This document shows positions 3,283 to 52,207 of a stretch of 59,020 nt of DNA, piece by piece. Source of the stretch: Desulfobulbaceae bacterium (GTDB lineage Bacteria > Desulfobacterota > Desulfobulbia > Desulfobulbales > Desulfocapsaceae); contig JAFLKM010000042.1 in NCBI GenBank assembly GCA_019163335.1, forward strand, positions 1-59,020. Direction: 5' to 3'. Below the pieces are notes generated by a model. The model was given only the letters and a program-made list of their open reading frames with translations, searched no databases and was not told the DNA's origin. The position numbers and the translations under genes were made by a program. The stretch's first letter is position 1. The number at the start of each line of letters is the position of its first letter.

Positions 3283-4988
3283 CTTCGGTCAGCTGGTGGA
3301 TTGAGGATTTTATGAATGAGAACTTTGGTGATGAGGTAGGTAGGGGCGATACCTTCTGCCCCCATGGACCCCGCAGCCAGAGTCTGCCCGCCGTGCAAAG
3401 GATTGTCTGAGGCATAGTATGCATACCGTATGCGTACTTGCGAGGAGATGTGTCCTTGAATCACTGCAGCATTGATGGCTCTCTGGTAGTGTCCGCCCTC
3501 CATTTCCAGACCTACGGCCTTCCAGCTGGAGCTGTAAAAACGCTCCAGCACATCACGGTTCTGCAGGGAGGTGCCGAGGACTGTAACCATCGGCCCGACA
3601 TAGACATTGGCATTTTCTTCAAAATCACTGGTTCGTAAGTCATTGACCACAATGTAGTTATGGGCCGACCCTTCCATAACATGGGCTGTGGCCAGGATAA
3701 TATCTCCTTTTTTCCCCGGCAGAATCCCTGCCTTGCCCATGATGGCGATTGAGGTGAACTTGAAGGTGAGGAGTTTATCCTCAAAACGATCAGGCCGCAG
3801 GAGCTCATCCATAACTTCAAAGGCTTGTGTGCCAAAGGCATAGTCCATGACCAAGATAACCGGCTTATTTTTTTCGATATACTCAAGATCGATATTCAGA
3901 TCAGGGTGGAGGGAACTGTAATCGATAGTTGCTGAATCAATGACCATGACATCTATATTTGACCCGGAACTGTCCGGGAGAAAGGTCAGTCCATGTTGCC
4001 CGGCAAAGGCCTCAACATCCTCTTCCTTGCCCTTTAAAGTCGGAATCATATCATACAGACTGGTTGGGATATTTTCTTTCATCCCTTGTAATGCGCCGGC
4101 ACCATAGAGAATATTCTTCACAGAATGCATATTGGAGCTGATAATATGGATGGGCCGTTCTTGAAAGCCGCGTTGAACCAGATGCAGTTTCACCGCCTCT
4201 GCCCATTTTGAAGCGTATTTGTGATGGGCAATCATCTCCTGCAATGACGGGGTGAAATAGATCGTCAGATGTTCATCCGGAGATTTGATCTCCTCGATTA
4301 TCCGTTCTCCCATACTGTAAATAATGGCAAACAAGCCATTGTTGAATCGCTGCCCATGGTGTGTTTTGTTCATGCTCTCATAGGTTTCGCGGGTCTCCCG
4401 ATAGGTACGTCCCAGAAGAATGGAGAGGTTCCAAATGGCCTGATCCAGTACCGCGCCTTCAAGCACCAGCTCTCCATGCGCTGCCTTTCCCAGATCGTGC
4501 CATTCGGAGCAGGTCCTTCCTTCTTTGTCGCAGACCTGCTGTTGAATCTTCTGGGACTCAATACTGAGGAAGGTGATATGGGTAAGGATGTCATAGACCT
4601 CGGTCAGCCCTTTGGTTATCATAAAACAAATCTCACTCTCTGAGACCACATAGGATAAACGTCTGCGTTTAAGAGGGATAACCTGCTCGAAGGTGGTGTT
4701 CTGGAAATCCTCATTGCCGGTCAGAATAATGCGGTTGCATTTTTCAATCCCCCGTGGCATCCGGTCAATGACATACTCAAGACCCTGGAGCTCCATAACC
4801 CGGGAGTCCACCATGGAGCCGTAGATTTCCGGGGAGAACAGCTTTAATGATTCCGCAAGTTTTTCACCGGATTTCCCCGAGGGCCGGTAATTTCCTCGCA
4901 ATGTCAGGGCGTCTGCTAGCGTTTGAAAGGTGCGAATGGCAAGGCGGGCTTTTTGGGCCTTGGTAAGATCCTGCATGGTGAACTCCAC
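3273..4988 (-). CDS. DUF6909-like protein with nucleoside phosphorylase-like C-terminal part
   Basis: This 571-aa soluble protein is the first gene of the operon. The N-terminal half is helical and not recognised in detail. The C-terminal third contains MGKAGILPGKKGDIILATA and later AVGLEMEGGHYQRAI. The GDII and (V/L)EMEG signatures are laid out as in the PNP/UDP phosphorylase and MTA/SAH/AMP nucleosidase fold, where the second Glu binds the ribose. The family assignment (DUF6909) is from memory and moderate; the nucleosidase link is inference from the motifs. There is no membrane segment or signal peptide. It overlaps the kinase gene by 10 bases, suggesting a metabolite-sensing or signalling partnership. 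Confidence 0.65.
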   Translation of the reverse strand: MEFTMQDLTKAQKARLAIRTFQTLADALTLRGNYRPSGKSGEKLAESLKLFSPEIYGSMVDSRVMELQGLEYVIDRMPRGIEKCNRIILTGNEDFQNTTFEQVIPLKRRRLSYVVSESEICFMITKGLTEVYDILTHITFLSIESQKIQQQVCDKEGRTCSEWHDLGKAAHGELVLEGAVLDQAIWNLSILLGRTYRETRETYESMNKTHHGQRFNNGLFAIIYSMGERIIEEIKSPDEHLTIYFTPSLQEMIAHHKYASKWAEAVKLHLVQRGFQERPIHIISSNMHSVKNILYGAGALQGMKENIPTSLYDMIPTLKGKEEDVEAFAGQHGLTFLPDSSGSNIDVMVIDSATIDYSSLHPDLNIDLEYIEKNKPVILVMDYAFGTQAFEVMDELLRPDRFEDKLLTFKFTSIAIMGKAGILPGKKGDIILATAHVMEGSAHNYIVVNDLRTSDFEENANVYVGPMVTVLGTSLQNRDVLERFYSSSWKAVGLEMEGGHYQRAINAAVIQGHISSQVRIRYAYYASDNPLHGGQTLAAGSMGAEGIAPTYLITKVLIHKILNPPADRRCD

Positions 4989-19453: not shown

Positions 19454-19520
19454 CTGCCTTCTTACTCCATGGTATAATTTAGGATCTTCCCAACGAACTC
19501 ACGGCCACGGTTTGAAACTC

Positions 19521-19570
19521 CTGTTCCAGCCTGTTCCAGCCTGTTTCAGCCTGTTTCAGCCTGTTTCAGC
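19521..19570. repeat. Five-unit 10-bp tandem repeat
   Basis: Five head-to-tail copies of CTGTTYCAGC: the first two read CTGTTCCAGC and the last three CTGTTTCAGC, with no gaps. The array lies about 70 bases upstream of the acyltransferase start and about 100 bases from the end of hrpA. The 10-base period matches one turn of DNA, so it could place binding sites on one helix face, or it may be a simple slippage array. Confidence 0.95.
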
Positions 19571-19666: not shown

Positions 19667-22600
19667 TCAACACAGATGGTTGAGATCCTGCCATTGCTGG
19701 TTGAGTTTTTTAGCCGAGACCTGAATGTTCCCTTTAATCTCCGGGGCAAACAGGGCGATGCGGAAGTCGGCAATCATGTCCTGAAAGTGTTTCAGTCTCA
19801 ACCGGCATTCTGGGGAGAGATCTTTTTCCCTGGAACGGAGCTTGTGCAGGTTCTGCAGGTGAGGCTGGAGTTGAGAGGCCTTGAGGCTATCCTTGGCTGG
19901 GTCTGCGTGGGCTCGTTCAATCCGGATGATAAGCGACTTCATGTCCCGGCTGCATCGCTCCATCTCTTCCAGGGTCTTTGACTCGAGAAAATTAACCGGC
20001 AGGATTTCATCGAGCAGTCGCTCATATTCGTCAAAGCGTTCCTCGTTGAAACAATGGGATTTCCTGGCCAGATCGGCAAAGCGCTGGATATGGGAGCTGA
20101 CCTCCTTGCGTTGCCGGAGCATATTCATGACGGAATCGCAGATGATTCGACCCTGCACATGGAAATTTTGTTTCTTTACTCTGGCCACCGTCTCTTCAAA
20201 TTCTTTGCGGTCGGGGATGGAAGAGCTTGTCGTCTGAAAAAGGGAGCTGAGAATAAAGGAAAGGAGAACCGCCCCGCTTCCGCCATCCTTGGCTTGAGTG
20301 GCACCGGAACGTCCTTTCCCTGTTCCTCCTCCTTTGGCGTGTGTCTCTGTTCCGTGGCCAACTCGTTTGCCAAGGCCCTGAATGAGCCAAGCGGATGAGG
20401 GCCCGGAAAGGCTTGAAGTGCAGTATTTTTTCAGGGCTTTATATTGTTCCGCCACTTGAAGTTGATAGAGAAAGTTCAATCCTTCCCGATTTTGTTGAGC
20501 GGCTTGCTGTTGATCGGGAATAAATTCAACAACGACTCCGCCGCGGTCCCTGATCACCTTGAAGGCTGGAAAAAGGGCGCCGCACATCTCCTGCTGCGGG
20601 CTGTAAAGAGGGAGAGAGGCGGGCAGACCGTCAAAATTCCAGGTGGAAAACAACTTCCCTTCCCACAATGTTTGAATCTTTTTATCCTGCGATTTCAGGC
20701 GCGCCAGAGAAGTGGTTGTGGTCGGTTGATGGCGTCCCTCCCGAAGCTTTGTCAGTGATCTGCCCGTTACCACTTCTTTTCCGGAATGGTCAAAAAGAAG
20801 AAAGCGCATGCTCAGATGGGGCGGCAGTTCTTCAGGCCAGTCAGCACGAGAGGTTGTGCGCCGAAACGATTTAAGAATGGAGCGCTCCAGTGCCTGAAGA
20901 AGCGAACCCTTATACATGTCCAGATCATCCAGCAGCATATCCACCGTGCCGCTTAATGGGATGAGGAATTTACGGATATTTTTAGGCAGTCCTTTGAGCA
21001 GGAAGGTGACCTTTTCCTTGAGCAATCCCGGTACCAGCCATTCAAAAAACGACTCATGCAGGGTGTCGATCAGATCCAGAGGGATACGCACGGTCACCCC
21101 GTCGTCAGGTGCCCCGGGGACAAAGTGATACTCCAGCCGGAACTGGTGCGATCCAACAGTGAGCAGGGGCGGGAAATCGGTGAGCTCGCGCTGTTCCGGG
21201 CGGCGATTGAGGATGTCTGTTTCGTTCATCACAAGCGTCTGCCTGTTTTTCTCTTTCTGCAGGAATCGGTTCAGGGTGTGGCGGTCATAGACATCTTGCG
21301 GCAGTCGTTGCTCATAAAAGGCAAAAAGTGTTCGGTCATCGACCACAATATCCCGTTTTCTGAGACGTTCCTCAGTGGCCTGCCACTCTTCGAGGAGGTT
21401 CAGGTTTTTCTGGAGAAAGGGAAAAGGGGATTCGAGCTCACCATTGATCAGGGCCGATTGAATGAAGATTTGTCGTGCCTCGGCCTGGCATCTTGCATCA
21501 ATCCTTCCATAGTTGATCTTGCGGCTGGCAACAATCACCAGGCCAAAGAGGGTAACCTTCTCATCGGCTACGACCTGCCCGGACTTTTTGTGCCAGCGTG
21601 GGCTTGACCAGGAACGTTTGCACAGTTTTCCACCCAGATGTTCCAGCCATTGCTGGTCGATGGCGGCCACGGTCATGGCATAAAGCCTGGAAGTTTCAAG
21701 AAATGAAGCGGCGATGATCCATTGATTGCTCACGCCATCCTTGGCTCCCGCGGCATTTGGATCTCCCTGTCCTTTAACGCTGCGGGAATCCGTCTTTTGT
21801 CTTCCCTCTTCTTGCTTCTGCTTTATCGCCAGTGTTGATCCGGGAAAAACCATAAGTTCTATTCCACCGCCGCCAAGATAGATTTTATCTTTTTGTTTCA
21901 TTGCAATATTGCGCAGAAAACCAGTGCAAAGTGATTGGTGGATGGCGGTGTAGGAAGCAGGAGTGGAGTTTTCATCGAACCCGGGACGAAGGGACAAGAG
22001 CCGCTCCAGCTGTTCGTGCAGGTCGAGCCATTCGCGCATGCGCTGAAAAGACAGGAAATGGCTGGAGCAGAATTTTTTCAGACGGCTCCAGGATTTTGTT
22101 TGCAGCTGAACATCATGGAAGAGATCCCAGATATTGAGAAGGGTCAGGAAGTCGGAACTTACGTGTGCAAATTTCCGGTGGGCGGTATCGGCCTCCTGTT
22201 CCCGGTCGGCTGGCCTGACCCGTGGGTCAGCAATGGCGAGGGCGGCGGCGATGACCTTGATTTCGCGCAGGCAGTTATTCTCCCGGGCGGCAATGATGAT
22301 TCTTGCGATACAGGGATCAATGGGCAAGGTCGCCATGATCCGGCCATGACTGGTCAGTTTGTCATTTTCATCGATGGCATCGAGTTCGGTGAGGAGCTTG
22401 TAGCCGTCGCGGATGGTGCCGGGGGGCGGTGGTTCGACAAAGGGGAAAGAATGCGGGTCTCCGAGATGGTAGGCAATCATCTGGAGGATTACTTCAGCCA
22501 GGTTGGCACGTTTAATTTCAGGTGTGGTGAATTCTTCCCGGCTCAGGTAGTCCTCTTCCGAATAGAGGCGGACACAGATGCCCGCGCCAATCCTGCCGCA

Positions 22601-23641
22601 CCTGCCCTTGCGCTGGTCGCAAGCGGCCCGGGAGATTCTGGTGATCGGCAGGCTGATGGTCTTGGCCCGGACATTATACTGGGAGATCCTGGCCAGTCCC
22701 GAGTCCACCACATATCTGATCCCAGGTACGGTGATGGAGGTTTCGGCGACATTGGTCGCCACCACAATCTTGCACTGCTTGAAGGGCTGGAAGATACGAC
22801 GCTGATCCGCCCCCTGGAGACGACCAAAGATGGGCAGGATGATGGCTTCCGGCATTTTACCGGCCAGAAGGGTACAGCAGGTACGGATGTCCCGCTCGGT
22901 GGGCAGAAAAATCAGGGTATCGCGCGAACCACTATGGAGATGGAGGTCAGCAACGGTCTGGACGCAGTGGCTGATATAGTCTCCACGGTCGTCGCCTGCG
23001 CTGGTATCGTCATCTTCGGCAGGGGCATAACGAACCGTAATCGGATAGGTTCTGCCGGCAATGGTGAGGACCGGCGCCTGGTCGAAATGTCGTGAAAAGA
23101 TGGCCGTATCGATGGTGGCGCTGGTGATGATCAATTTCAGATCAGGCCGCTTGGGAAGCAGGTTTTTAAGAAAGCCAAGGAGAAAATCGATGTTGAGGCT
23201 TCGTTCATGGGCCTCGTCAATGATGATCACCCCGTATTTCCTGAGCAGCGGGTCGTTCCTGGTCTCGGCCAGCAGGACTCCGTCGGTCATGAACTTGATC
23301 CGGGTATCGGTAGTGGTCTGGTCATGGAATCGGATCTTGGAGCCAACCAAGAGGCCGTTCTCGCCTTTTTCAGTCAACTCTTCACGCACCCGTTCCGCTA
23401 CCGAGAGGGCGGCGATGCGTCGCGGTTGAGTGCAGCCAATAATCAGATCAGCTCTTTTATCTCTTTTGCGGCTGCCGGGCGCCTCGACCTGTGCAAGTTC
23501 CAGACAGAACTGCGGCAGTTGCGTCGTCTTCCCCGAGCCGGTATCACCGGCTATGACGATGGTCTGATGGGCTCGTAAAGCCTCCTGGATCTCGGCTTTA
23601 TGATTGAGGATGGGAAGGGATTCCGGGGAGTGAATTGTCAT
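19667..23641 (-). CDS. hrpA: ATP-dependent RNA helicase HrpA (DEAH box)
   Basis: A 1324-aa protein, close to the usual 1300 aa of HrpA. The helicase core shows GDTGSGKTTQLPQ (about 32-44), CTQPRRIAALSVAERV, IIIDEAHERSLN, ITSATIDTAIFSRHF, FLPTERDIR, ATNVAETSITVPGIRYVVDSG and RKGRCGRIGAGICVRLYS. It continues into the helicase-associated and OB-like regions and the long C-terminal DUF3418 region with FPPLLTVGSHQFRLEYHF. HrpA acts on RNA and helps resolve stalled or collided ribosomes. Two low-complexity inserts near residues 625-640 and 1095-1125 carry related A-K-D-G segments (see findings). Confidence 0.96.
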   Translation of the reverse strand: MTIHSPESLPILNHKAEIQEALRAHQTIVIAGDTGSGKTTQLPQFCLELAQVEAPGSRKRDKRADLIIGCTQPRRIAALSVAERVREELTEKGENGLLVGSKIRFHDQTTTDTRIKFMTDGVLLAETRNDPLLRKYGVIIIDEAHERSLNIDFLLGFLKNLLPKRPDLKLIITSATIDTAIFSRHFDQAPVLTIAGRTYPITVRYAPAEDDDTSAGDDRGDYISHCVQTVADLHLHSGSRDTLIFLPTERDIRTCCTLLAGKMPEAIILPIFGRLQGADQRRIFQPFKQCKIVVATNVAETSITVPGIRYVVDSGLARISQYNVRAKTISLPITRISRAACDQRKGRCGRIGAGICVRLYSEEDYLSREEFTTPEIKRANLAEVILQMIAYHLGDPHSFPFVEPPPPGTIRDGYKLLTELDAIDENDKLTSHGRIMATLPIDPCIARIIIAARENNCLREIKVIAAALAIADPRVRPADREQEADTAHRKFAHVSSDFLTLLNIWDLFHDVQLQTKSWSRLKKFCSSHFLSFQRMREWLDLHEQLERLLSLRPGFDENSTPASYTAIHQSLCTGFLRNIAMKQKDKIYLGGGGIELMVFPGSTLAIKQKQEEGRQKTDSRSVKGQGDPNAAGAKDGVSNQWIIAASFLETSRLYAMTVAAIDQQWLEHLGGKLCKRSWSSPRWHKKSGQVVADEKVTLFGLVIVASRKINYGRIDARCQAEARQIFIQSALINGELESPFPFLQKNLNLLEEWQATEERLRKRDIVVDDRTLFAFYEQRLPQDVYDRHTLNRFLQKEKNRQTLVMNETDILNRRPEQRELTDFPPLLTVGSHQFRLEYHFVPGAPDDGVTVRIPLDLIDTLHESFFEWLVPGLLKEKVTFLLKGLPKNIRKFLIPLSGTVDMLLDDLDMYKGSLLQALERSILKSFRRTTSRADWPEELPPHLSMRFLLFDHSGKEVVTGRSLTKLREGRHQPTTTTSLARLKSQDKKIQTLWEGKLFSTWNFDGLPASLPLYSPQQEMCGALFPAFKVIRDRGGVVVEFIPDQQQAAQQNREGLNFLYQLQVAEQYKALKKYCTSSLSGPSSAWLIQGLGKRVGHGTETHAKGGGTGKGRSGATQAKDGGSGAVLLSFILSSLFQTTSSSIPDRKEFEETVARVKKQNFHVQGRIICDSVMNMLRQRKEVSSHIQRFADLARKSHCFNEERFDEYERLLDEILPVNFLESKTLEEMERCSRDMKSLIIRIERAHADPAKDSLKASQLQPHLQNLHKLRSREKDLSPECRLRLKHFQDMIADFRIALFAPEIKGNIQVSAKKLNQQWQDLNHLC

Positions 23642-29014: not shown

Positions 29015-29062
29015 GCCGCATCCCAGAAACAGCGGAACGGATTGCTGTTTCTGGGATGCGGC
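29015..29062. repeat. Perfect 19-bp inverted repeat (hairpin)
   Basis: GCCGCATCCCAGAAACAGC at 29015-29033 is followed, after a 10-base loop, by its exact reverse complement at 29044-29062. No T tract follows on either strand, so it is not a standard terminator. It abuts the dispersed hairpin at 29058-29122. Confidence 0.95.
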
Positions 29063-29122
29063 ATAAGAGTCCGTAAAGAGAACAAGCTAGAAAAAGACCT
29101 TGCCTGTTCTCTAACGGTCTCT
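29058..29122. repeat. Dispersed hairpin repeat, copy 1
   Basis: CGGCATAAGAGTCCGTAAAGAGAACA pairs through CCGT..AGAGAACA with TGTTCTCTAACGG (29105-29117). The same layout and bases recur at 52144-52207: CGGCATAAGGGGCCGTAAAGAAATA ... TATTTCTTAACGGCCCCTAAA. The flanks and stem base are conserved, the loops differ. This copy sits immediately downstream of the HDOD-GGDEF stop codon and may contribute to its 3' end; AGACC/GGTCT followed by TTTTT could also stop minus-strand transcripts. Confidence 0.75.
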
Positions 29123-30671
29123 AAAAATTAAACCATTTCTTCTTCGGGGCATAGGATACAACTCGGTTTCTGCCCTCATGTTTGGCCTCATAGAGGGCCA
29201 GATCTGCTTGATTGATAAAATTGTTTTTGTTAAAATTTTCCACCGTGGCCGGGAATGCGCTGGCCAGACCAAAACTTGCCGTTACCCTATAGGAGTTGTT
29301 CGTATCGTCAAAGATTGCGTTTTCAATTGCGGCGCGCAGTTTTTCGCCTACGGCGAGGGCTTCTGGCTCTGTGGTCTCCGGAAGGATAATGACAAACTCT
29401 TCGCCGCCGTAACGGGCCAGGGTGTCATATTTACGAAGATTGTCCTGGAGAATCTCACAAAATTTCTTCAAAACAAAATCTCCGGCCTGATGACCGTAGG
29501 TATCATTAAATTTCTTGAAGTGATCGATGTCAAGAAGGAGCAGAGAGATGGCGGTCTGGTGTCGACTTGAGCGGTTGATTTCCTGATCCAGGCTGTTCTG
29601 GAAATAACGGTGGTTGTAGACCTCGGTTAATCCGTCAATATTGGCCAAGTTGTCCAGAATCTTGTTTTTATCTTGAAGCTCCTGGGTCAGCTTTTCCAGT
29701 TTTATCTTGGTCTGCACCAGTTGCTGATTAATCTGATCATAATTGAGGTTGAGCAGGCTGAGCTTAATATTGGCCTCTTGCAGGATCTCCTGAATGGATC
29801 TGGTGTTTTTGATGTTCAGACCAAAATAGGCTGCCGCTTGATCCATCTGGTGATGGAGACTGGACAGGATGTTGTCAATGTCTTCATTGCTCAGGCCCAG
29901 GAGTTTTTTTGCCTCTTTACGGAACTGTTTATGATACCCTTCCGGGTTGCTCGAGGAGAGGATGTGAACCAGGATATCCGAGAGATAGACGGCGTTGATC
30001 GTCGCCTTGATCTTAGGGCTTTGTCCCTGATATTGCGTAGGATTGTGGTGAAACAGCAGGGGGAGCAGTAAAACTTCCGGGAAGCCCCAGCTTTTGGCTA
30101 CCTCATAGCCAAGAATGCAGTGATCGATTCCCACTACCTTTGTTTCAATCTCAGAAACTGTTTCTTTTTCTTCATCGATTCGGGTGAGAACTTTTTCATA
30201 TTCGTCCGGAAAGGTCTTGGCAAAGATCAATTCTCCTAGGTTCTGCAGCAGCCCTGAAACAAATATCTCTTCCGTGTCTGCCCCTTTCACCTTCCCAAGA
30301 ATGAGTCTGGATGCCACTGCTGAGGTAAGTGAGTCTTCCCAGAATTTTTGAAAATCAAAATGATCACTTTTGGCCCCACTCTTGATTGAAAGAAAAGAAA
30401 ATGAGAGCACCAAAGAGCGAACAGCGTTGATTCCAAGAATAGAAACAGCCTGGTTGATGGAGCCAATCTGCTGTGGAAAGCTGTAAAATGCGGAGTTTGA
30501 AACCTTGAGAATCTTGGCAGACAGAGCGATATCTTTTGAAACCAGCTCAGCGATATCCGACAGGGTGACATCTTCCCGGGAAGTCAGGGAGATGATTGCC
30601 GATGCCACGGTGGGCAAGGTGGGCAGTTCGGGAGAATTGAGGACAATTTTAAGGATATCGTCAGGTTTCAT
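29121..30671 (-). CDS. HDOD-GGDEF signalling protein (diguanylate cyclase)
   Basis: A 516-aa cytosolic protein. The N-terminal about 270 residues form an HDOD domain (LPTLPTVASAIISLTSRED, LVSKDIALSAKILKVSNSAFYS, SILGINAVRSLVLSFSF). A coiled linker follows at about 295-345. The C-terminal GGDEF domain has DGLTEVYNHRYF, LLLDIDHFKKFNDTYGHQAGD and ARYGGEEFVIIL; the GGEEF signature is catalytically competent, so synthesis of cyclic di-GMP is expected. No RxxD inhibitory site precedes it at the usual spacing. A PilZ protein encoded nearby could receive the signal. Confidence 0.95.
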   Translation of the reverse strand: MKPDDILKIVLNSPELPTLPTVASAIISLTSREDVTLSDIAELVSKDIALSAKILKVSNSAFYSFPQQIGSINQAVSILGINAVRSLVLSFSFLSIKSGAKSDHFDFQKFWEDSLTSAVASRLILGKVKGADTEEIFVSGLLQNLGELIFAKTFPDEYEKVLTRIDEEKETVSEIETKVVGIDHCILGYEVAKSWGFPEVLLLPLLFHHNPTQYQGQSPKIKATINAVYLSDILVHILSSSNPEGYHKQFRKEAKKLLGLSNEDIDNILSSLHHQMDQAAAYFGLNIKNTRSIQEILQEANIKLSLLNLNYDQINQQLVQTKIKLEKLTQELQDKNKILDNLANIDGLTEVYNHRYFQNSLDQEINRSSRHQTAISLLLLDIDHFKKFNDTYGHQAGDFVLKKFCEILQDNLRKYDTLARYGGEEFVIILPETTEPEALAVGEKLRAAIENAIFDDTNNSYRVTASFGLASAFPATVENFNKNNFINQADLALYEAKHEGRNRVVSYAPKKKWFNF

Positions 30672-38062: not shown

Positions 38063-38200
38063 GGTGCGAAAAGATCAGTGAATAAGTGGCTATTTTATTT
38101 CAATTATAATAGTGAGTATGGCTGGGGAATGCAATACACGTTGATCCTGATCTTTACATTTTTATCATTATTGACTAATTTTACCCAACTCTCATAGAGA

Positions 38201-38430
38201 GTGGACTTCTTCCGGTGTCGTCCTGACAGGACGGTGAAAAGGGAATACGGTGCAAAACCGTAACGTTGGGCCAGCGCTGTAAACGGGGACAAGAACCGCA
38301 ATCGGGATTCTTTGCACTATGCAAGGCCTTCCCGAAGTCACTGTCCGTTATTGGGGAAACCCGATAGTGGGCGGGAAGGCGCGGTTTACGGTTGATCCGT
38401 GAGTCAGAAGACCTGCCGGAAGAAGAGAGG
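38201..38430 (+). promoter_or_regulatory. Cobalamin (adenosylcobalamin-type) riboswitch
   Basis: The region has the ordered elements of the B12 aptamer: closing stem CTTCTTCCGG (from 38206) with CCGGAAGAAG (ends 38425), GGTGAAAAGGGAA, ACGGTGCAAAACCGT, the core GGCCAGCGCTGTAA, the B12-box region around CACTGTCC, GGGAAGGCGCGG, and the 3' signature GTGAGTCAGAAGACCTGCC. It precedes the thiC-like bzaF gene and is followed at once by an intrinsic terminator, so bound cobalamin should stop transcription. Confidence 0.95.
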
Positions 38431-38445
38431 AATTCTTGTCCATAG

Positions 38446-52024: not shown

Positions 52025-52143
52025 CTTCACACCCGTATAATCCCCTGAAAATGGAGAGGAAGGGAGAAAGCCTTCTTTGCACCATGAAGAAAATTCAATA
52101 AACCGATGTAGATAAATAACTATAACATTCTTAATTCGTGAAC

Positions 52144-52207
52144 GGCATAAGGGGCCGTAAAGAAATAGATAAAAATGTAATGGTTATTTCTTAACGGCCC
52201 CTAAACA
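52144..52207. repeat. Dispersed hairpin repeat, copy 2
   Basis: AGGGGCCGTAAAGAAATA (52150-52167) pairs with TATTTCTTAACGGCCCCT (52185-52202), 17 of 18 bases, loop 17. Flank CGGCATAAG and tail CTAAA match copy 1 at 29058-29122. No T tract follows on either strand, so it is not a standard terminator, although it lies between the convergent coaBC and alcohol dehydrogenase genes. Confidence 0.8.

Follow-up and report, generated by a model that had tools for sequence, protein, structure and literature searches.

A dispersed family of REP-like two-hairpin elements in a Desulfobulbaceae genome and its possible role at mRNA 3' ends

Two elements of different subfamilies in the window

The window (the whole stretch of DNA analysed; 59,020 bases, 49.9% GC) belongs to a draft genome of 3.2 Mb in 103 contigs, and includes two elements of a dispersed hairpin family (Table 1): copy 1 (type A), starting at the stop codon of an HDOD-GGDEF gene; and copy 2 (type B), flanked by convergent coaBC-like (plus strand) and Fe-ADH (minus strand) ORFs, whose stops are 74 and 65 bp away. 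Both copies are best read on the minus strand. An earlier note, made from the sequence alone, had placed hairpins at these two sites, and both were found there, at limits that proved too narrow: both elements are longer than described, and copy 1, given as 29058-29122 alone, also includes the 19-bp hairpin at its left. The two copies were considered members of one family, which is right for the base of the P2 hairpin and the linker that they share, and has to be amended in that they belong to different subfamilies. The note had not recognised the first hairpin of copy 1, the contact with the stop codon, the arrangement in tandem arrays or the signs of mobility. Elsewhere in the window, a short tandem repeat of period 10 (CCTGTTCCAG/CCTGTTTCAG) was observed at 19520-19570, downstream of a large ORF (19667-23641).

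Table 1 Features of the two hairpin elements in the window.
Feature	Position	Strand	Evidence or remark
Type A element (copy 1), two hairpins	29015..29124	minus	R1 match 109.2 bits, E 4.7e-22; fold -66.9 kcal/mol (z -12.0; 0/200 shuffles equal it)
UAG stop codon of the HDOD-GGDEF gene (ORF 29121-30671, minus)	29121..29123	minus	the first helix (P2) begins with its A and G
Copy 1 P2 hairpin, beginning with the AG of UAG; stem variable, loop U-rich	29066..29122	minus	fold and covariation
Copy 1 linker CUUAUGCC, conserved, joins both hairpins	29060..29067	minus	pattern, fold, orthologs
Copy 1 P1 hairpin, 19 bp	29015..29062	minus	sequence and fold
Type B element (copy 2)	52099..52204	minus	R2 match 108.1 bits, E 2.4e-19; fold -28.5 kcal/mol (z -4.3; 0/200 shuffles equal it)
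Copy 2 P2 hairpin	52150..52202	minus	predicted fold
Copy 2 linker CUUAUGCC	52144..52151	minus	sequence and type B alignment
Copy 2 P1, short closing stem	52102..52146	minus	in the centroid, absent from the minimum-energy fold
TAA, copy 2 left border	52099..52101	plus	sequence
TAA, copy 2 right border	52202..52204	plus	sequence

Type A elements (about 110 nt) are formed by two hairpins with CUUAUGCC between them. The sense strand of copy 1 reads UUAG-AGACCGUUA-(stem with U-rich loop)-UUUACGGACUC-UUAUGCC-(19-bp hairpin), so that P2 precedes P1. In the predicted fold, the A and the G of the UAG pair with the CU opening CUUAUGCC; the first two and the last three bases of this linker are paired in two helices, and its middle UAU is unpaired. 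The two stop-codon pairs are invariant across 48 type A sequences; the pattern used to collect them demanded TTAG/TCAG and CTTATGCC, and the invariance of those columns is therefore no evidence alone.

Type B elements share the P2 base and CUUAUGCC with type A. Their P1 consists of a short closing stem and a loop that is able to pair with the P2 loop region (the complementarity is partial in copy 2). In 57 type B copies, this loop-loop pairing had a mean of -9.5 kcal/mol within copies vs -7.0 between copies, a difference equalled in 0 of 300 permutations, with the kinship among copies left in and several copies pairing weakly. Terminal inverted repeats were found in type B, two inner arm segments pairing better within copies. 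The sense strand begins with TTA(G) and mostly ends with TTA, which corresponds to TAA at both borders on the other strand; in a count of 88 matches, with duplicate loci left in and some type A copies mixed in, TAA was present at 79 right and 47 left borders. The models built for the two subfamilies have 111 (type A) and 106 (type B) positions, the elements being about 106-111 nt long. RNAalifold found almost no structure in the first, unsorted type B alignment, and the sorted alignment A2 was used afterwards.

Copy number, tandem arrays and turnover among relatives

The dispersal that the earlier note had proposed from two sites is borne out by the covariance-model search: model R1 (48 type A sequences, 28 pairs) gave 80 matches at E <= 0.001 in the genome of origin, a number that also counts units of arrays, some copies of type B and a few overlaps between opposite strands. 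A pattern of the core shared by both types (20 positions, 17 fixed bases, up to 3 mismatches) had 88 matches in the same genome vs 6 for the reversed control. Using strict filters, R1 matched 15 of 242 genomes sampled across the order (E <= 1e-8), 14 of them from the genus of the host, and model R2 (57 type B sequences) matched 6 of 297 genomes sampled across the phylum (E <= 1e-6), belonging to four genera; the distribution of type B across the phylum is patchy. An exact pattern catching both types was present in 22 of the 38 genomes of the relatives set, including 17/17 of the genus, and in at least 116 stretches of GTDB contigs. Among the 80 GTDB contig titles listed, 62 are, by our own count, Desulfo-, deltaproteobacterial or Thermodesulfobacteriota bins, the others being Methylomirabilota (7), Proteobacteria (6), Holophagaceae (3), Gammaproteobacteria (1) and Chloroflexi (1, an unconvincing copy); matches in these other bins may be due to transfer, misbinning or chance. 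Carriage by phages or plasmids was considered and rejected: one type B query had no match at E <= 0.01, and the sole viral pattern match (L147) has no TTAG start.

Tandem arrays make up many of the type A sites of the genome; the first step measures 108-204 nt (329 nt in one comparison, across a withheld stretch), and the later units have no P2 5' arm. In 15 of 17 comparisons, the 3' arm of a later unit pairs better with the 5' arm at the stop codon than with its own upstream sequence. Either the arrays were made by hairpin-driven replication slippage, or the alternative pairing is used, or both. At three loci (L272, L273 and L285), a terminator-like hairpin (C-run, G-run, T run) occupies the position of the P1 loop in some last array units. 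Five contigs of G000 (C22, C45, C53, C68 and C86) end inside or beside type A elements, suggesting that arrays may break the assembly.

The occupation of orthologous sites differs between the two types. Ten genomes could be read at the end of the HDOD-GGDEF gene: G003, G005 and G001 carry copy 1 there, and G002, G004, G006, G011, G013, G014 and G016 lack it; six of the seven genes without it still end in TAG, as aligned. Copy 2 is absent in the sister species G003 and G005, where its flank has diverged and the insertion border cannot, for that reason, be fixed. Seven further type B sites were compared: two are occupied and five empty in G003 (one of the five judged from a 19-bp gap between the flanks), and one is occupied and four are empty among the five that could be judged in G005, so that, with copy 2 added, one sister species lacks the element at 6 of 8 sites. 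Empty sites are clearest at L030 (in G005) and L268 (in G003), which read CTAA once, vs TAA at both sides when occupied; at L030, the empty site is CACTAAGAATCCC and the occupied one CACTAA-element-TAAGAAACCC. A target duplication would be a tentative reading of these two sites: the other empty sites are too diverged, the TAA could be the element's own, and the left border is often not TAA. In G003, a type B copy lies inside a cobalamin riboswitch (L261 10558-10896), in its variable part, and the riboswitch still scores 74.2 bits; in the window (38196-38434) the same riboswitch is uninterrupted. The empty sites in sister species and the insertion into the riboswitch indicate that type B moves. 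Type B turns over quickly between sister species, typically with TAA borders, and type A is mostly inherited among the three sister species.

Matches to the 5' end of the element were collected in three genomes (34 matches), and the nine that were read for 150 nt correspond to whole, truncated or decayed copies. One type B copy (L101 near 1359, plus strand) is cut to its two ends, leaving one short palindrome between TAA borders.

Stop-codon anchoring and pairing at orthologous sites

Type A elements contact stop codons in frame. Among 44 distinct copies, from loci fetched by the element pattern and not by gene, 33 end at least 80 open codons exactly at the UAG on the sense strand, vs 2/44 and 2/44 in the two other frames and a baseline of 7/53 for the window TTAG sites located outside ORFs of at least 150 codons; in all these counts the ORFs are mechanical, not gene calls. 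The 11 copies without a closing 80-codon ORF count against the reading that we favour below. The contact of type B is partial: 33, 12 and 19 of 116 copies by frame at the P2 side, and 35, 11 and 14 of 103 at the P1 side (stop directly before GCCG), where the count covers all loci fetched. Copy 2, distant from both neighbouring stops, illustrates that anchoring is not universal. Of 136 flanked copies, 126 lie between two ORFs of at least 120 codons each, and these neighbours are convergent in 52 cases, tandem in 66 and divergent in 8, a REP-like placement at gene 3' ends with a possible supply of TAG.

All of the 16 stop-anchored genes picked for the ortholog test had Pfam matches: UDP-GlcNAc acyltransferase domain, cytochrome bd subunit II, AMP-binding with C-terminal domain and aconitase C; HlyD, anthranilate synthase I, glutamine amidotransferase and GTPase with KH domain; RF3 C-terminal domain, ACS/CODH beta, NT5C and ABC; OEP, YchF, amine oxidoreductase and MlaE. 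Several of these domains reach the last residues (YchF-GTPase_C to 380/381, ACS_CODH_B_C to 394/396, and also AMP-binding_C_2), indicating that the element does not truncate those proteins. Stop-codon readthrough, weighed from the reading of the sequence, was not retained as a candidate; some elements have a TGA soon after the UAG.

The last 330 nt of the 16 genes were searched in G003 and G005, whose sites are unselected for the element. One gene was found in neither genome, and the 30 orthologous sites obtained include 25 in which the same stop codon carries the element, two (L010 gene) with a different hairpin family instead, and three with neither family (one ending in TAG, two in TAA). 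This second dispersed family, of similar plan, was observed at L300 and L310 (the G003/G005 orthologs of the L010 gene), where TGCCTTACAG...GGCAC directly follows the TAG, and is followed by TTATCCCG or TAATCCCG and a small CCCG/CGGG hairpin; pieces resembling it (query 3513-3581 and 4216-4307) have many matches in G003 and G005.

The pair count leaves out the L010 gene (2 of 27 rows), which has the other hairpin family. At the 25 sites, 76 of the 568 P2 pairs are changed on both sides and still paired, and none is changed on both sides and broken; 12 have a one-sided change and remain paired, 17 are broken, and 463 are the same. With independent sides at the observed rate, 14.4 double changes would be expected. 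The 17 broken pairs count against the favoured reading. The linker is nearly invariant: CTTATGCC is exact at 23/25 sites, and 3 of 200 linker positions have changed (one of them in the unpaired middle). CCGTT is kept at 23/25 sites and ACGG at 24/25. The stems have diverged by 0.159, the linker by 0.015 and the coding ends by 0.115. Throughout the type A family, 93.3% of the cells pair, and 298 cells are double-changed, compared with 84 in shuffled and no more than 73 in slid versions. The covariation of type B is weaker: 54 double-changed cells vs 21 in shuffles, and 7 pairs with double changes vs 5.0 in shuffles, a value reached by 37 of 500 shuffles.

Type A thus keeps its pairing and its linker while its stems change. 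The suggestion of the earlier note that pairing is conserved despite sequence change agrees with the double-changed stem pairs found family-wide and at orthologous sites; its argument, differences between copies 1 and 2, proves no compensation alone, since these copies are non-orthologous and from different subfamilies. Some sites, such as those of the HlyD-type gene (12 pairs) and the RF3 gene (8-9 pairs), differ at many stem pairs simultaneously, which could correspond to replacement by another copy and not to stepwise compensation; palindrome correction or replacement by another copy could also give part of the double-change pattern.

Interpretation and comparison with known systems

The explanation that we favour, with some caution, is that the family consists of REP/MITE-like mobile palindromes, of which type A has probably been kept in 3' UTRs, as hairpins that act on the ends of mRNAs or on translation termination. 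The location, the sense orientation, the stop codon within a helix, the fixed linker and the compensated stems all point to a role in RNA. The family would have been spread by a transposase, type A being its long-retained form, working in mRNA, and the arrays would have arisen through hairpin-driven slippage. The most likely function of type A, by analogy, would be that of a 3' block opened and closed by the terminating ribosome: as the stop codon sits in the P2 base, this ribosome would have to open P2; after its release, P2 and P1 would refold into a block, which might keep exonucleases away from the 3' end of the mRNA, affect the final step of termination by slowing or altering it, or do both. 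Considerably more tentative is the idea of a class of cis-acting RNAs with a hairpin that has the stop codon as its foot, termination and 3'-end folding being mutually exclusive; in arrays, one stop-codon 5' arm might pair with any of several 3' arms, giving alternative 3'-end structures with a possibly tunable or switchable output.

Purely selfish palindromic repeats are a possible, though not a probable, explanation for the same data: a transposase would need the hairpin or the ends, pairing in old copies would be kept by quasi-palindrome correction (template switching) or copy replacement, and the contact with stops would result from a TAA/TTAG target and the purging of harmful insertions. 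The turnover of type B, its mostly TAA borders and its partial contact with stops at both sides are in line with this explanation, and GTAG REPs often give TAG to flanking ORFs (PMC3733652). The linker at orthologous sites, conserved while the stems diverge, is outside the reach of palindrome correction and argues against it, as does the in-frame stop contact of type A, far above the TTAG baseline. The elements might alternatively be unusual transcription terminators, often for two convergent genes together, an unlikely reading to which their position at gene 3' ends and seldom between divergent genes, the stable hairpin directly after the stop in the copy 1 fold, and the U run that follows the loop-loop pairing on the sense side of many type B copies would nevertheless conform. 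However, the GC hairpin and U-tract of an intrinsic terminator were absent from both strands of either window copy in a simple scan, UUAUGCC and no U run follows P2 in the type A alignment, and some arrays have a separate terminator-like hairpin further on.

Mobilisation as a REP family in the strict sense by a RAYT/IS200 enzyme is still harder to sustain, and we give it little credit. Y1 transposase matches were found in 10/10 genomes searched, TTAG resembles the GTAG tag, and the placement is REP-like; however, size and tag differ, the type A model matched none of 30 Y1 loci (a subset of the matches) convincingly (best E 0.079), and the counts do not run in parallel (51 pattern matches and one partial Y1 match in G015; 8 Y1 matches and no pattern match in G017). 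A RAYT/Y1 transposase was consequently rejected as the partner. Three close Y1 (IS200-like/RAYT) matches were observed in G000 (C1:143655-145826), with the element not beside them. Least credible of all are 3'-UTR-derived small RNAs with CUUAUGCC as the pairing region; an 8-nt motif kept between two hairpins would suit them, but five of its eight bases pair inside the element in the copy 1 fold. Integron attC sites, weighed by their core motifs, were not retained as a candidate.

The family constitutes a many-copy natural data set, traceable from moving insertions (type B) to apparent resident 3'-UTR parts (type A) and holding dozens of double changes between sister species, in which the old question of the role of stop-codon-proximal hairpins can be put to a direct test. 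The family may, in addition, account for breaks between contigs in these genomes.

The earlier note knew no named family with this sequence, and neither copy resembles an Rfam family at gathering score (permissive settings gave just weak matches, mostly microRNA); no description of the hairpin family was found in the open-licence PMC literature. Bacterial MITEs such as ERIC and NEMIS are, like these elements, short imperfect palindromes; MITEs have a short duplicated target, which is putative here. The family differs from them in the TAA found at each border and in a further copy of the arm inside the element, and no autonomous partner was seen in the nine 5'-end loci that were read. The resemblance to GTAG and RAYT-associated REPs lies in high-copy palindromes near 3' ends, between convergent or tandem ORFs, with ends often giving TAG: in PMC3733652 (Di Nocera 2013), REPs are described as lying for the most part near 3' ends, between ORFs in convergent or tandem order, and GTAG REPs as often supplying the TAG stop codon. 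A GTAG-REP, however, is a single palindrome of 20-40 bp or an inverted dimer, whereas the elements of this family exceed that size and have two different hairpins in direct order with a fixed linker, and their tandem arrays have a single 5' arm each. Nor do they have the unpaired GTAG (or CGTC) end tag, the P2 end being TTAG (invariant in alignment A1, whose collecting pattern required T[TC]AG) and the type B P1 end mostly TAA, and the comparison of 30 Y1 loci with the type A model gave no convincing sign of the flanking RAYT gene of a REPtron. Escherichia coli REPs located up to 15 nt from the stop are reported to stall ribosomes (Liang 2015, as cited in PMC12306157), and REPs can block exonucleases, according to PMC12306157. 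The elements have in common with these E. coli REPs a hairpin within 15 nt of a stop codon, and differ from them in that the helix takes the stop codon into its own base (distance 0); any likeness in function would be one of analogy.
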